This document shows, in pieces, positions 6,818-62,082 of a stretch of DNA of 64,000 nucleotides. Source of the stretch: Pseudoleptotrichia goodfellowii (lineage in GTDB: Bacteria > Fusobacteriota > Fusobacteriia > Fusobacteriales > Leptotrichiaceae); the NCBI RefSeq assembly GCF_007990505.1, contig NZ_AP019822.1:1116001-1180000 (forward strand), written 5' to 3'. The notes beneath the pieces were generated by a model that searched no databases, had not been told where the DNA came from, and saw only the letters and a program-made list of their open reading frames with translations. The position numbers and the translations under genes are program-made. Within the stretch, counting starts at the first letter, position 1. Every line of letters starts with the position of its first letter.

Positions 6818-7085
6818 GTCATACTAGCCGGGGAGTTAGCGGTGCCCTGTATCTACAACCCGCTTTAGTAGAGGTGATGTCGGACTTGCGGATGATTTTA
6901 GTGTCAATGCCTTAAACTGTAAAGTGTTGAGAAAATAGTCCCGTATTGTGGAGAAGCGGTGAATCGTGTCAGGTTGGGAACGAAGCAGCACTAAATCGAT
7001 TTCTTCAGGTTTACGGGGTAGCTGTTTTTGAGCTTTCTGTTTGAGAAACAGGCGGTAAAATTTTTTCAAATGTCCGATGTATGAC
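6818..7085 (+). ncRNA. ffs: Signal recognition particle RNA, large Bacillus-like form
   Basis: This is the RNA scaffold of the SRP, which with Ffh targets membrane and secreted proteins. The S-domain core is clear: GTCAGGTTGGGAACGAAGCAGC (read as GTCAGGTTGGGAAC then GAAGCAGC, around 6967-6988) matches the universal GTCAGG...GGAA..GAAGCAGC Ffh-binding loop. The 5' part 'GGGGAGTTAGCGGTGCCCTG' is the Alu-domain signature of Gram-positive large SRP RNA. The ends pair: GTCATAC (6818-6824) with GTATGAC (7079-7085). Length is about 268 nt, against 114 nt for E. coli 4.5S. It has its own promoter and a terminator at 7120-7154. GC content is well above the neighbourhood. Confidence 0.93.
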
Positions 7086-46365: not shown

Positions 46366-46394
46366 TTGACTTTTGGAATATAATAACATATAAT
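46366..46394 (+). promoter_or_regulatory. Promoter of the metNIQ leader
   Basis: TTGACT (46366-46371), exactly 17 nt, and TATAAT (46389-46394). The start would be near 46401, 36 nt before the small leader ORF. Confidence 0.8.
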
Positions 46395-46436
46395 AACCTT
46401 ATAGAAAAATTAGTAAAAATTTTGGAGGAAATAAAA

Positions 46437-46472
46437 ATGAAAAGATTTAGAGAAGCGATGTGTATGTCATAG
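46437..46472 (+). CDS. Putative 11-residue Met/Cys leader peptide of metNIQ
   Basis: A tiny ORF, M-K-R-F-R-E-A-M-C-M-S then TAG, behind a strong TTTTGGAGG site with good spacing. Three of its eleven codons are Met and one is Cys; the Met-Cys-Met cluster lies just before the stop. It lies between the promoter at 46366 and a terminator at 46564, and the genes downstream import methionine. That is the design of an attenuation leader in which ribosome stalling at Met codons alters RNA folding. The codons AAA-AGA-TTT-AG form one arm of an 11-bp long-range stem. Mechanism is inference. Confidence 0.5.
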   Translation: MKRFREAMCMS

Positions 46473-46551
46473 GTATTAAGTTTGTGCTGAAGTAACGGGT
46501 ACAGGCTTATGTTGTATTGATAAGAATTGTACCTGTGATGCTAAATCTTTT
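46440..46551 (+). ncRNA. Structured metNIQ leader RNA
   Basis: AAAAGATTTAG (46440-46450) is perfectly complementary to CTAAATCTTTT (46541-46551). Inside, GGTACA (46498-46503) pairs with TGTACC (46528-46533), and CTTAT (46506) pairs with ATAAG (46520). The nested stems form one extended fold of about 112 nt. It matches no SAM, SAH or T-box consensus I know. Confidence 0.6.
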
Positions 46552-46563
46552 GTAAATAAATAG

Positions 46564-46598
46564 AAAAAGCTCTCAGGAAAAATGAGAGCTTTTTTTCT
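46564..46598 (+). terminator. Terminator of the metNIQ leader
   Basis: AAAAAGCTCTCA (46564) pairs with TGAGAGCTTTTT (46583), followed by T's; it lies 40 nt before metN, so it must be bypassed for expression. CTTTT at 46547-46551 could pair with the A-rich 5' arm. Confidence 0.9.
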
Positions 46599-46637
46599 GA
46601 AAAAATTTAAAAGTCAAAATTATATTAAGAGGTGATC

Positions 46638-47699
46638 ATGGAAAAATTTATTACACTGAATAATTTGGTGAAAATATATAAGACGAGTGAGGGAAAAGAA
46701 TTAAAAGCCGTAGATGGAGTAAATCTTGAGATTGAAAAAGGAGATGTTTACGGGATAATGGGACTTAGCGGTGCCGGGAAGTCGACATTGATAAGACTTA
46801 TAAACAGACTGGAAGAACCTACATCTGGAGAAATACTTGTAAATCATATTGTAAAAGATAAAAAAAGCATCGAGAAGAAAGACATAATGTATTTTCAACA
46901 GGATGAACTTAGAGAATACAGAAAAAAAACGGGAATGATATTTCAGCATTTTAATCTTTTAAATTCAAGAAATGTAGCCGGAAATATTGCGTTTCCTCTG
47001 GAAATATCAGGCTGGGGAAAAAACGAGATAAATGCAAGAGTAGATGAACTATTGGAAATCGTAGGATTGACTTCAAAAAAATATAATTACCCTGAACAGT
47101 TATCAGGAGGACAGAAACAAAGGGTAGCAATAGCAAGAGCTTTGGCAAATAATCCCGAAATACTCCTTTCGGATGAGGCAACGAGTGCTTTGGATCCAAG
47201 AACTACAAATTCTATATTGGATTTACTGAAAGATATAAATAAAAAATTCGGCATAACAATAATACTTATTACACATCAAATGGAAGTAATAAGAAAAATT
47301 TGTAATAAAGCGGCTATAATGTCTGACGGCAAAATTATAGAAGAGGGAAAAACAAGAGATATATTCTTAAATCCTAAAAGTTCTTTGGCAAAAGAGTTTG
47401 TAGCGAATATATCCCACAATGACGACTTTGAAGTAGAAGAAAAAAATAGCGGAAAAGAAAAAAACGAAGGAAGAATCAAGTTAAAGCTAAAATTTACTGA
47501 AGAACAGGTTGATAAACCTTATATTGCGGAAATAATAAAAAAATACGATGCAGAAATAAGTATATTAGGCGGCTCTATTGATAAGCTGAGTGATACGGTA
47601 GTAGGTCATCTGACGGTAGAAATTATTGCAGAAAAAGAAAAAATAGACGTTATATTAAAATGGCTTGAAATGAATAATGTAGAATTGGAGGTATTATAG
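46638..47699 (+). CDS. metN: Methionine ABC transporter ATP-binding protein
   Basis: MetN powers D/L-methionine import. The roughly 353-residue protein has Walker A 'GLSGAGKSTLIRL', signature 'QLSGGQKQRVAIARAL', Walker B 'ILLSDEATSALDP' and the C-terminal NIL domain (last 80 residues or so), which senses intracellular methionine and shuts the transporter. A GTG at 46632 is in frame, but AAGAGGTGATC, an almost perfect match to the 16S 3' end, favours the ATG at 46638. The leader with the Met-rich small ORF precedes it. metI overlaps its stop by 1 nt. Confidence 0.95.
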   Translation: MEKFITLNNLVKIYKTSEGKELKAVDGVNLEIEKGDVYGIMGLSGAGKSTLIRLINRLEEPTSGEILVNHIVKDKKSIEKKDIMYFQQDELREYRKKTGMIFQHFNLLNSRNVAGNIAFPLEISGWGKNEINARVDELLEIVGLTSKKYNYPEQLSGGQKQRVAIARALANNPEILLSDEATSALDPRTTNSILDLLKDINKKFGITIILITHQMEVIRKICNKAAIMSDGKIIEEGKTRDIFLNPKSSLAKEFVANISHNDDFEVEEKNSGKEKNEGRIKLKLKFTEEQVDKPYIAEIIKKYDAEISILGGSIDKLSDTVVGHLTVEIIAEKEKIDVILKWLEMNNVELEVL

Positions 47700-48379
47700 T
47701 GAGATTTGACTGGGTAAAATTTTTACAATTTAATAATATGCTGATACCTCTTTGGGAAACAATATATATGGTTGCAATAGCGACAGCCGTATCTCTTCTA
47801 ATAGGACTTCCGATAGGAGTGCTACTCGTTGTCAGTGATTCAAAAGGTGTCAAGCCGAATAAAACTTTGCATAAAATACTTGATATGATATTGGTAAACA
47901 TTACAAGATCCATACCTTTCGTAATATTAATGGTGCTCCTTATACCGTTATCCAGAATGATAGTACATAAATCTTACGGAAGTATTGCATTTATAGTTCC
48001 TTTATCTTTGGGAGCGGCTCCTTTTGTAGCGAGAATAATAGAAGGAGCATTAAAAGAAGTGGACGAAGGTCTGATTGAAGCATCAAAATCAATGGGAGCG
48101 ACGACTTGGGAAATAATCATTAAAGTTATGATACCCGAAGCAATGCCTGCATTAATTCACGGCTTGACATTGACAATAATAAGCTTAATCGGATATTCGG
48201 CAATAGCCGGTTCGATTGGAGGAGGAGGACTAGGAAACTCTGCTGTTGTAGATGGCTATACGAGATCAAATCCTGAAATAATGTGGCAGGCAACAATAGT
48301 TATAATTATACTGGTTCAAATAATCCAGTTTATAGGAGACTTTTTTGTGAAAATTATAAATAAAAAGAGAACAAAATAA
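47699..48379 (+). CDS. metI: Methionine ABC transporter permease
   Basis: MetI is the membrane channel of the MetNIQ importer. The 226-residue protein has about five helices and the coupling-loop motif 'EGLIEASKSMGATTWEIIIK' that contacts MetN. The GTG at 47699 overlaps the metN stop, and GGAGG lies 8 nt upstream. Two metQ copies follow. Confidence 0.95.
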   Translation: MRFDWVKFLQFNNMLIPLWETIYMVAIATAVSLLIGLPIGVLLVVSDSKGVKPNKTLHKILDMILVNITRSIPFVILMVLLIPLSRMIVHKSYGSIAFIVPLSLGAAPFVARIIEGALKEVDEGLIEASKSMGATTWEIIIKVMIPEAMPALIHGLTLTIISLIGYSAIAGSIGGGGLGNSAVVDGYTRSNPEIMWQATIVIIILVQIIQFIGDFFVKIINKKRTK

Positions 48380-48399: not shown

Positions 48400-49200
48400 A
48401 TGAAAAAAATAATTTTATTTTTAACAGTTGCATTGATTTTTGCAGTATCTTGCGGAGAGAAAAAAGAAAGTAAAAAATAAAATGAAAAATTGACAGTGGC
48501 GGCAACACCGATTCCGGCAGGAGAATTGGTAACACTTGTAAAAGATGATTTGAAAAAAGAGGGGATAGATCTCGAAGTAGTTATTTTCAATGACTATGTA
48601 CAGCCGAATAAAGCTCTTCAGGATAAAAGCGTGGATGCGAATCTGTTTCAGCACACACCTTACATGAATAATTTCGGGAAAAAGAATAATTTTGAAATGG
48701 CGGCGGTAGGAAAAGTGTACTTGCCGACAATGGCACTTTACTCGGATAAGGTCAAATCATTGGAAGAACTGAAAGACGGTGCTACGATATTTATTCCCAA
48801 TGATCCTACAAATTTGACAAGAGCGTTGTTATTACTTGATAAAAAAGGATTGATAAAATTAAAAGATAACACAAAACTTGACTCAAAATTATCGGATATA
48901 GTTGAAAATACGAAAAATCTTAAATTTGTAGAATTATCGGCAGAGCAGATTGCACCGAGATACAAAGAGGCGGATGCTGCTTTCATTACAGGAAGTTATG
49001 CTTTGGACAGCGGGCTTAACCCTAAAGATAACGGAATACTGTCTGAAGATAAAGATTCTCCTTATGTAAATGTACTGGCTACATTAAAAGGGAGAGAAAA
49101 CGAAGAAAAGATACAGAAACTGTTAAAAGCATTACAGTCGGAAAAAGTGAAAAAATACATAGAAGAAAAATACAAAGATGTAATAATACCGGCATTTTAA
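48400..49200 (+). pseudogene. metQ: metQ copy 1, interrupted at codon 27
   Basis: Encodes a MetQ/NlpA lipoprotein, the methionine-binding component, but with an in-frame TAA. The ATG at 48400 (AAAGGAG upstream) opens a lipoprotein signal ending at the lipobox 'FAVSCG'. After 26 codons a TAA (48478-48480) stops translation in the Lys-rich linker. The same frame then runs intact from 48481 to 49200 ('LTVAATPIPAGELVTLVKDD' onward). A single base change (for example AAA, CAA or GAA to TAA) accounts for it. The rest could only be made by re-initiation (TTG at 48490) as a protein lacking its lipid anchor, or by readthrough. Copy 2 downstream is complete, so loss would be tolerated. Confidence 0.8.
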
Positions 49201-49254: not shown

Positions 49255-50085
49255 ATGAAAAAACTATTATTATTGGGAGTACTGACACTGTTATTTGTGT
49301 TATCGTGCGGTGGAAAGAAAGAAGAAACGAAAGATCAGAAAGGAAGTGCCGAAGAACCTAAAAAAACTGAAAAATTAGTGGTAGGAGCTACTCCGGTACC
49401 TCATCAGGAATTACTTGAATTGGTAAAGGATGATTTGAAAAATGAAGGGATTGATTTGGAAATAGTTCAGTTTAACGACTATGTTCAACCGAATAAAGGA
49501 TTGGCAGATAAAAGTCTGGATGCAAACTTCTTCCAGCATATTCCTTATATGGAAGAATTTGCAAAGAAAAATAATATGGAACTGGTATCAGTAGGAAAAA
49601 TACATTTGGAACCTATGGCTATTTACTCGAAAAAAATCAAAAATATAAATGATTTGAAAGAAGGAGACACTATTTTAATACCTAACGATCCTACAAACGG
49701 AGGAAGAGCTTTAATATTACTTGATAAAGCAGGAGTATTAAAATTGAAAGATAATACAAAATTGGATTCTACAGTAGCGGATATAGTTGAAAATAATAAA
49801 AAAATAAAAATAGAACAGTTGGCACCTGAACAACTGGCTCCAAGACTTTCAGAAGTTACAGCAGCTATTATAAACAGTAACTTTGCTTTAGATGCTAAAC
49901 TTTCCTTTAAAGACGATACTATATTTATAGAAGATAAAGACTCTCCTTACGTAAATATCGTGACTGTATTAAAAGGAAGAGAAAATGAAGAAAAAATACA
50001 AAAACTTGTAAAAGCATTACAAAGTGAAAAAGTTAAAAAATATTTGGAAGAAAAATATTCAGGAAGTGTAATTCCTTCATTCTAA
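49255..50085 (+). CDS. metQ: Methionine-binding lipoprotein MetQ (copy 2)
   Basis: The 276-residue substrate-binding lipoprotein of the MetNI importer. The signal ends in lipobox 'FVLSCGG', then a charged linker leads to the NlpA/MetQ domain: 'LVVGATPVPHQELLELVKDD', 'FNDYVQPNKGLADKSLDANF', 'FQHIPYMEEFAKKNN', and 'TILIPNDPTNGGRALILLDK'. It is a tandem duplicate of copy 1 (near-identical C-termini, 'TVLKGRENEEKIQKLVKALQ'), preserved in full. The start follows CAGGAGG. Confidence 0.95.
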   Translation: MKKLLLLGVLTLLFVLSCGGKKEETKDQKGSAEEPKKTEKLVVGATPVPHQELLELVKDDLKNEGIDLEIVQFNDYVQPNKGLADKSLDANFFQHIPYMEEFAKKNNMELVSVGKIHLEPMAIYSKKIKNINDLKEGDTILIPNDPTNGGRALILLDKAGVLKLKDNTKLDSTVADIVENNKKIKIEQLAPEQLAPRLSEVTAAIINSNFALDAKLSFKDDTIFIEDKDSPYVNIVTVLKGRENEEKIQKLVKALQSEKVKKYLEEKYSGSVIPSF

Positions 50086-61924: not shown

Positions 61925-61953
61925 CTTTCTGTAAATAAAAAATTAAATAAGTT

Positions 61954-62018
61954 ACTTATATATTCTTTGAATAAGGCAAAGAGTTTCTACGAGCGACCGG
62001 AAATTGCTTACTATAAGT
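61954..62018 (+). promoter_or_regulatory. Purine riboswitch aptamer, guanine type
   Basis: P1 is ACTTATA (61954-61960)/TATAAGT (62012-62018). P2 is CTTTG/CAAAG, J2/3 contains AGTTTCTAC, and P3 is AGC/GCT enclosing ACCGGAAATT. The order and loops match the xpt guanine aptamer. The discriminating position in J3/1 (TAC-TAT) is C, as in guanine rather than adenine riboswitches. A perfect 10-bp terminator follows at 62031, so purine excess would stop transcription before the leader ORF and purL. Confidence 0.88.
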
Positions 62019-62030
62019 GAGAGCATAGAT

Positions 62031-62082
62031 ATCTGTTTTATTGCTTCATTTTTGGTGTGCAGTTTTAAAACAGATTTTTTAT
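62031..62082 (+). terminator. Riboswitch terminator
   Basis: ATCTGTTTTA (62031-62040) and TAAAACAGAT (62066-62075) pair over 10 bp, followed by T6. Confidence 0.88.

Follow-up and report, generated by a model that had tools for sequence, protein, structure and literature searches.

The metNIQ operon in the window, as we call the whole stretch of 64,000 nucleotides analysed here, is preceded by a leader that is very likely a ribosome-mediated (leader-peptide) transcription attenuator, a conclusion for which all evidence is computational and none experimental. The sensed signal is probably methionine, with cysteine possible, and the working of the attenuator in the cell, including read-through on amino-acid shortage, is inferred. 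A Shine-Dalgarno sequence, a short ORF and its stop lie upstream, and an intrinsic terminator stands before the first gene. Cognate codons are met family-wide and only weakly in the window peptide alone, with its two internal Met codons (simple count, p = 0.02), and an antiterminator whose formation depends on the ribosome is supported by duplex energies and by a codon-by-codon folding walk. Membership of a wider scaffold family rests on homology of regions 2, 3 and 4 and the terminator. We consider it likely that one homologous attenuator RNA serves the Fusobacteriota as a chassis, in which regions 2-3-4-terminator are kept and the leader codons rewritten. The phylum would then possess the equivalent of a T-box regulon based on leader peptides, and the window copy would have switched recently from His to Met/Cys as hisJMP was lost and the leader came to stand before metNIQ.

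Architecture of the metNIQ leader

The original prediction had described a promoter, an ORF with Met-Cys-Met, an 11-bp stem around inner helices and a terminator before metN, and each of these elements was found in its predicted place, along with a Shine-Dalgarno sequence for the ORF (Table 1). The 5' arm of the long stem is indeed coding sequence of the ORF. Nucleotides 46400-46600 fold at -50.3 kcal/mol (z = -5.4), a stability reached by 0 of 200 shuffles, which bears out the claim of a structured leader; for 46436-46556, with the terminator excluded, the folding z is -4.2. The long stem, put forward as the switch element, is real but only one of several alternative helices. The original description lacked the decisive ones: helices 1:4, 2:3 and 3:4, together with the antiterminator, in which region 4 pairs with the terminator 5' arm. 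A second promoter-like site, also matching 11/12 positions, overlaps the TTGACT-17-TATAAT site, and 41 nt separate the end of the terminator from the metN ATG (46638).

Table 1. Features of the metNIQ leader and operon (window coordinates)
Feature	Position	Strand	Remarks
Sigma-70-type promoter TTGACT-17-TATAAT	46366..46394	+	11/12 consensus positions; consensus match, start unmapped
Shine-Dalgarno sequence GGAGGA of leader ORF	46424..46429	+	
Leader peptide ORF, 11 codons, MKRFREAMCMS then stop	46437..46472	+	translation; ORF kept in homologous leaders
Met8, Cys9, Met10 codons of leader ORF	46458-46466	+	
P1 5' arm, within leader ORF	46440..46450	+	folding
P1 3' arm	46541..46551	+	perfect 11-bp stem with 46440-46450
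Region 1, overlapping last ORF codons and stop	46466..46475	+	partner region 4
Region 2 (AAGTTTGTGCT), directly 3' of leader stop	46478..46488	+	partner region 3
Region 3 (GGTACAGGCTTAT)	46498..46510	+	partner region 2 or region 4
Region 4 (ATAAGAATTGTACCTGTGATGC)	46520..46541	+	partners region 1, region 3 or terminator 5' arm
CCTGTGATGC, region 4 segment pairing with terminator 5' arm	46532-46541	+	
GCTCTCAGG, terminator 5' arm and loop	46569..46577	+	antiterminator partner of CCTGTGATGC
Intrinsic terminator	46564..46596	+	stem covaries across family
metN, first gene under control	46638..47699	+	TIGR02314 MetN E = 1.7e-105, below curated cut-off
metI	47699..48379	+	
First metQ copy	48400..49200	+	in-frame TAA at codon 27 (MKKIILFLTVALIFAVSCGEKKESKK then stop)
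Intact metQ copy	49255..50085	+	

The statement that no known riboswitch is present was upheld by an Infernal/Rfam scan, in which the window leader matched no family at gathering score, no SAM or other Met riboswitch aptamer model and no T-box. With E raised to 5, 12 sub-threshold matches appeared, none of them a riboswitch or T-box; the best Thr_leader score was 22.5 bits against a gathering score of 55. Sub-threshold matches to MicC, GibS, trpB and Thr_leader were judged to be chance matches to the terminator. In 14 further family loci, cmscan found no T-box, and the Rfam leader and attenuator families (His_leader, Thr_leader and others) gave no gathering-level match.

Ribosome position and the predicted switch

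We propose that, when methionine (or cysteine) is scarce, the ribosome would wait at Met8-Cys9-Met10 and mask region 1 together with the P1 arm. Regions 2 and 3 could then pair and leave region 4 free, which would pair with the terminator 5' arm as the antiterminator, and metNIQ would be transcribed. With the amino acid plentiful, the ribosome at the stop would cover region 2, 3:4 would pair, the terminator would form and transcription would end. Without translation, P1, 1:4 and 2:3 are expected to form, again leaving the terminator free.

This scheme was modelled by constrained folding, with the ribosome footprint blocked and the transcript ending at the terminator loop, for fixed ribosome states in 28 members and for every codon with three footprint sizes in the window. 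In the window leader, the antiterminator holds 5.7-5.9 expected pairs when Met8, Cys9 or Met10 occupies the A site, drops at Ser11 and falls to 0.0-0.1 pairs at the stop, while 3:4 rises from 0.1-0.2 pairs at Met8-Met10 to 11.8-11.9 at the stop. The ribosome-free transcript folds into 1:4 and 2:3. Stalls at codons 2-7 give partial antitermination too (1.0-5.9 pairs).

Across the first set of 28 members, a clear equilibrium switch, which we read as at least 5 antiterminator pairs when stalled and little at the stop, is seen in only 8. The non-switching members are mostly Fusobacteriaceae with a 14-pair 3:4 hairpin in every state. In a larger sample of 157 leaders, sequestration of the terminator 5' arm at the regulatory codons exceeds that at the stop by at least 2 pairs in 49 and falls short of it by at least 2 in 5, compared with 13 higher and 15 lower for spacer-shuffled controls (Wilcoxon p = 1e-13 for native and 0.33 for shuffled spacers). 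A change of less than 2 pairs, or a reversal, is found in 108/157, and the metN leaders with MMMM (L240, L242, L243, L245 and L247) barely change (-0.1 to +1.0 pairs). Equilibrium folding was therefore rejected as family-wide proof, given that just 8/28 switch and that the MMMM-metN leaders lack an equilibrium switch. By inference, the remaining members would need co-transcriptional order, with 2:3 forming before region 4 exists.

Conservation of the alternative helices

Absence of covariation and of the ORF in relatives would have refuted the original prediction; both the ORF and the stems are present, the latter with paired changes. Of the aligned cells, 94.5% are paired for 1:4, 96.5% for 2:3, 84.2% for 3:4 and 93.6% for the terminator, and each of these helices exceeds all 500 shuffles in cells paired and covariation score. 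Pairs changed on both sides number 5/11 for 1:4, 4/9 for 2:3, 5/11 for 3:4 and 10/10 for the terminator. Since 1:4, 2:3 and the terminator guided the fit of the alignment, it favours those; 3:4 lies outside the model.

The antiterminator was assessed without an alignment. Its native duplex is more stable than shuffled versions (p < 0.05) in 27/28 first-set members, and the mean over the 28 is -12.6 kcal/mol, as against -5.8 for shuffled partners and -5.9 for partners swapped between clades. For the window, the duplex energy is -11.3 kcal/mol (shuffle mean -4.8, p = 0.01). Several cross-clade swaps match the native antiterminator in Leptotrichiaceae (4/19 for the window) and none does in Fusobacteriaceae. 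P1 is not universal: its ORF arm favours the native spacer over shuffled ones in 20/28 members. The stop of the leader ORF lies 0-7 nt before region 2 in 27/28 first-set members and inside region 2 in the other.

A scaffold family across Fusobacteriota

The window leader, treated in the original prediction on its own, is no one-off. A first covariance model (R1), built from nine leaders, matched in 28 of 98 Fusobacteriota genomes (E <= 0.01), and a second (R2), from 28 leaders, in 60 (E <= 0.05). The third (R3), made from 56 cores that start at the leader stop and thus exclude the leader codons, matched in 66 of the 98. Leader codons for many amino acids occur on this scaffold. The window leader scores 78 bits against R3 (E = 6e-9); as it is itself a training row of that model, independent support for its homology comes from blastn, by which it is 85% identical to the leader of a same-family genome, G020 (E = 3.9e-50).

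We read 159 loci and kept 157, in 63 genomes. Two loci without a clear codon run (L217 and L265) are outside the 157 used for folding and the tree and inside the 159 used for codon and gene statistics. Before any count, L072, L073, L074, the minus-strand L049 match and L164 (terminator only) were dropped, as was L112, which occupies the same place as L070; one R2 match (G055:C28, E = 0.037) is outside the sample, and near-identical cores were removed for the 56-row core alignment. The 157 leaders are not the whole family: the loci read that R3 alone had found comprise 59 among the matches listed (to near E = 4e-4) and 6 from a family-level search. Weak blastn matches that covered only the Shine-Dalgarno sequence and ORF start, such as L005, L006, L007, L014 and L015, were taken as ordinary ORF starts and not accepted as members.

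R3 gave no match, even at E <= 0.5, in 13 genomes of one genus (g6) of the same family. A pattern scan of genome contigs returned 12 loci, 7 in Fusobacteriota and 5 elsewhere; in the 5 non-Fusobacteriota genomes, R3 found nothing at the pattern site and one unrelated match (E = 0.048). Among 299 genomes from the phylum to which a Clostridiales genome belongs, searched with strict filters, R3 made 2 matches at E <= 0.01 where chance would give about 3. Outside Fusobacteriota, only that one phylum was sampled.

Leader codons follow the downstream gene

Each leader was labelled by the most over-represented residue among its last 12, and the next genes were grouped in clusters. The mutual information between label and cluster is 2.46 bits, compared with a highest value of 0.81 in 2000 shuffles. 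Near-copies among genomes inflate this test, but the agreement is also seen across unrelated gene clusters and among R3-only members, for which the label reaches p < 0.01 in 55/62, against 7% of random peptides. Gene names derive from NCBIfam and Pfam, with several scores below curated cut-offs because the searches used N-terminal pieces only, and clusters were named from the search of one member, not all.

His labels precede 44/44 HisJ-like binding proteins and 17/17 HisZ, Trp labels 11/11 NSS transporters, Asn labels 11/11 AsnA, and Thr labels 7/7 ThrS as well as 4/4 aspartate-semialdehyde dehydrogenases, whose leaders read TTT-III. A five-member cluster of class I synthetases divides accordingly, with a Trp label for its one TrpS and Tyr for its four TyrS. 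Leaders of PutP bear a Pro label in 17/23; the remaining 6 carry V or N labels yet contain NPMVP-, NPTVP- or PIxP-like motifs, and were set to Pro by hand for the tree. All 17 Met-labelled leaders precede metN (7/7), metY (6/6), homoserine dehydrogenase (2/2) or metG (2/2). Besides the window, six metN leaders have three or four Met codons each, reading MMMMLWKGL (four), IMMMLWKGL (one) and MMMHMYT (one, from G027, of the same family as the window), and their MetN proteins are 52-55% identical to that of the window. In all, the specificities on the scaffold include His, Pro, Thr, Thr/Ile, Trp, Tyr, aromatic mixes, Asn, Met and Cys.

The AsnA leaders L223, L229, L239, L241, L252-L253, L256-L257, L261 and L274 contain up to seven Asn codons, and an Asn-run leader (L218) also lies before an ammonium transporter.

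Proposed derivation of the window leader

Searching 33 whole genomes of the same family with blastn yielded strong leader homologs in G020, G001 (two in tandem), G005 and G002, and weaker matches in G004 and G023. These homologs precede operons for amino-acid ABC transporters of HisJ/GlnH/cystine type, and homologous leaders encode MKRFREAMHHHR, MKRFSESMCHHR, MKKFGGLLLTHHHR, MKRFNGLMCYHHHHMTFVSLY and similar peptides, each closed by a stop. The gene order in G001 is SDR gene - leader - hisJ - second leader - hisM - hisP - metN - metI - metQ - metQ, in which we read hisJ as truncated; the window has SDR gene - leader - metN - metI - metQ - metQ. Given this difference, and since no HisJ ortholog is encoded in the window genome (the best match shares 25% identity), we take hisJMP to be missing there.

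Where the nearest relatives read CAT CAT AGG TAA (His His Arg stop), the window reads ATG TCA TAG; it carries one extra base before the common CATAGG, which puts the His codons out of frame. Of the Met-Cys-Met motif singled out in the original prediction, only the second Met is peculiar to the window copy. Met-Cys is inherited: it occupies the same place in 9/12 first-set leaders from Leptotrichiaceae, among them leaders of His and Cys type. The MCMS leader occurs in one genome only. In a tree of the cores, the nearest rows to the window are His-type leaders, and the nearest Met-type leaders are not its closest relatives. The tree is weak (35/147 inner branches starred, long branches) and was used only for the neighbours of the window and for a rough count, from mechanical labels, of 20 specificity changes. 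On the basis of these comparisons, we infer that the window leader may derive from a His-type leader after the loss of hisJMP.

The tandem leaders of G001 (L038, G001:C23) stand in one operon, with a His-codon leader before hisJ and MKRFRESMCSHRC, followed by a stop, before hisM. The G001 counterpart of the first metQ copy reads through, and the window copy is either a pseudogene or a sequencing error. A second scaffold copy in the window genome (L077, G000:C1:526233-526408) has Cys codons, encodes MRKFRELMCCCMKL before its stop, and precedes a DctA/GltP-like symporter, a RimK-like ATP-grasp protein and a shortened metN-like ORF.

Alternative explanations

The same attenuator might sense Cys, or Met and Cys jointly, a reading that we consider unlikely. 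Cys9 is central among the predicted control codons, and Cys-type siblings exist, with MRKFRELMCCCMKL in the window genome before its symporter and MENKINIINYNMCMCSRRV before a CysI-like protein. However, the Cys codon is not special to the window, given that His-type leaders share it; the operon is of metNIQ type, and Met runs occur in the six remaining metN leaders. With two internal Met codons only, and Met-Cys common to His-type leaders, the peptide alone does not carry the argument for Met; support comes instead from the controlled gene, from precedent within the family and from the register in which the leader switches. Quite improbable in our judgement is a decayed His attenuator which, having lost hisJMP and the frame of its His codons, now acts as a fixed or weakly regulated terminator. 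The 85% identity to a His-type leader, the out-of-frame CATAGG remnant, the lack of a HisJ ortholog and the broken first metQ speak for decay; yet every helix is intact, the walk still switches exactly at Met8-Met10, the Shine-Dalgarno sequence, start and in-register stop are retained, and the altered codons before metN are Met, not random.

The original prediction had left open a methionine attenuator or an undescribed riboswitch class. The former is strongly supported and the latter is not needed; that the leader is a new metabolite-binding riboswitch with an incidental short ORF seems very improbable. Such a class could account for the strong conservation of the core, including the apical loop of 3:4 (46510-46519; TTGTATTG in the window and TTTTGTRTTA-like elsewhere), which is conserved family-wide though unpaired in every state considered. 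The attenuation helices give no explanation for this loop, and a pausing or protein-binding role is possible. Against an aptamer stand the lack of any Rfam riboswitch match and the use of one core before genes for many amino acids, where only the codon run follows the gene. That one scaffold serves many amino acids, ahead of genes for synthetases and transporters, likewise recalls a T-box regulon, but that the leader reads uncharged tRNA directly is barely credible: up to seven in-frame cognate codons after a Shine-Dalgarno sequence and start speak for translation rather than for a single specifier codon, and cmscan detected no T-box in the window or the 14 family loci. Both readings were rejected because of the missing Rfam matches and the match between codons and genes, and a translated attenuator of metNIQ remains the preferred explanation.

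Relation to known regulatory leaders

The his attenuator of Escherichia coli and Salmonella combines tandem His codons with a series of helices that exclude one another and an intrinsic terminator. The Fusobacteriota scaffold resembles it in its leader peptide, its alternative helices, an antiterminator freed by the stalled ribosome and the intrinsic terminator. In contrast to the enteric element (His_leader), it is a different RNA without an Rfam match, it serves other amino acids too, and its ORF is itself an arm of the long-range helices P1 and 1:4. T-boxes likewise employ one scaffold for many amino acids, and bind tRNA. Like them, the scaffold controls synthetase, biosynthesis and transport genes for many amino acids; unlike them, it reads charging through the codons of a translated ORF and does not match the T-box model. 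Methionine transport and biosynthesis are controlled by premature termination in S-box (SAM-I) and other SAM riboswitches and in Met T-boxes. The window leader matches none of these and apparently senses Met via AUG codons. To our knowledge, known attenuators for different amino acids share no RNA.

Leader-peptide attenuators with His codons have been reported for hisZ and hisS* in bacilli (PMC2965389) and in the B. cereus group, Eubacteriales and Erysipelotrichales (PMC9413887). As described in the main texts of these two papers, they resemble the present scaffold in joining a His-run leader peptide to a terminator/antiterminator outside Proteobacteria; those texts report them for His genes and nowhere mention "Fusobacteri". 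The Firmicutes elements were not aligned with our scaffold. Cys leader peptides are described for cys/cbs in Actinobacteria, the mycobacterial cys leader being without a conserved terminator (PMC1262725), and as uORFC-8-2 before cysS in Rhodobacterales (PMC8632094). They are alike in their Cys codons but, as reported there, unrelated to the Fusobacteriota scaffold.

The mechanism is thus known in kind; what appears new is a shared, re-codable scaffold for about ten amino acids, in which the codons are the sole changing part. No description of the Fusobacteriota family was found in the open-access literature, and subscription papers could hold one. Leader-peptide sensing of Met and Asn also appears new, on a literature check that covered Met codons and not Asn. 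About ten specificities on one RNA imply that the codons which set specificity are separate from the sequence which makes the switch, and the origin and specificity change of attenuators become directly testable via codon swaps. In a phylum that includes oral and clinical species, the models could moreover assign unknown transporter substrates from leader codons. A Tyr-run leader (YYYYYY, L268) lies before a PF04392 ABC binding protein and a Trp leader (L224) before a PF02653 permease, and these codons suggest the substrates of the adjoining transporters.

Other structured RNAs in the window

Elsewhere in the window, Rfam models detect a large bacterial SRP RNA at 6819-7084 (RF01854, 136.1 bits) and a purine riboswitch at 61936-62033 (RF00167, 68.4 bits).
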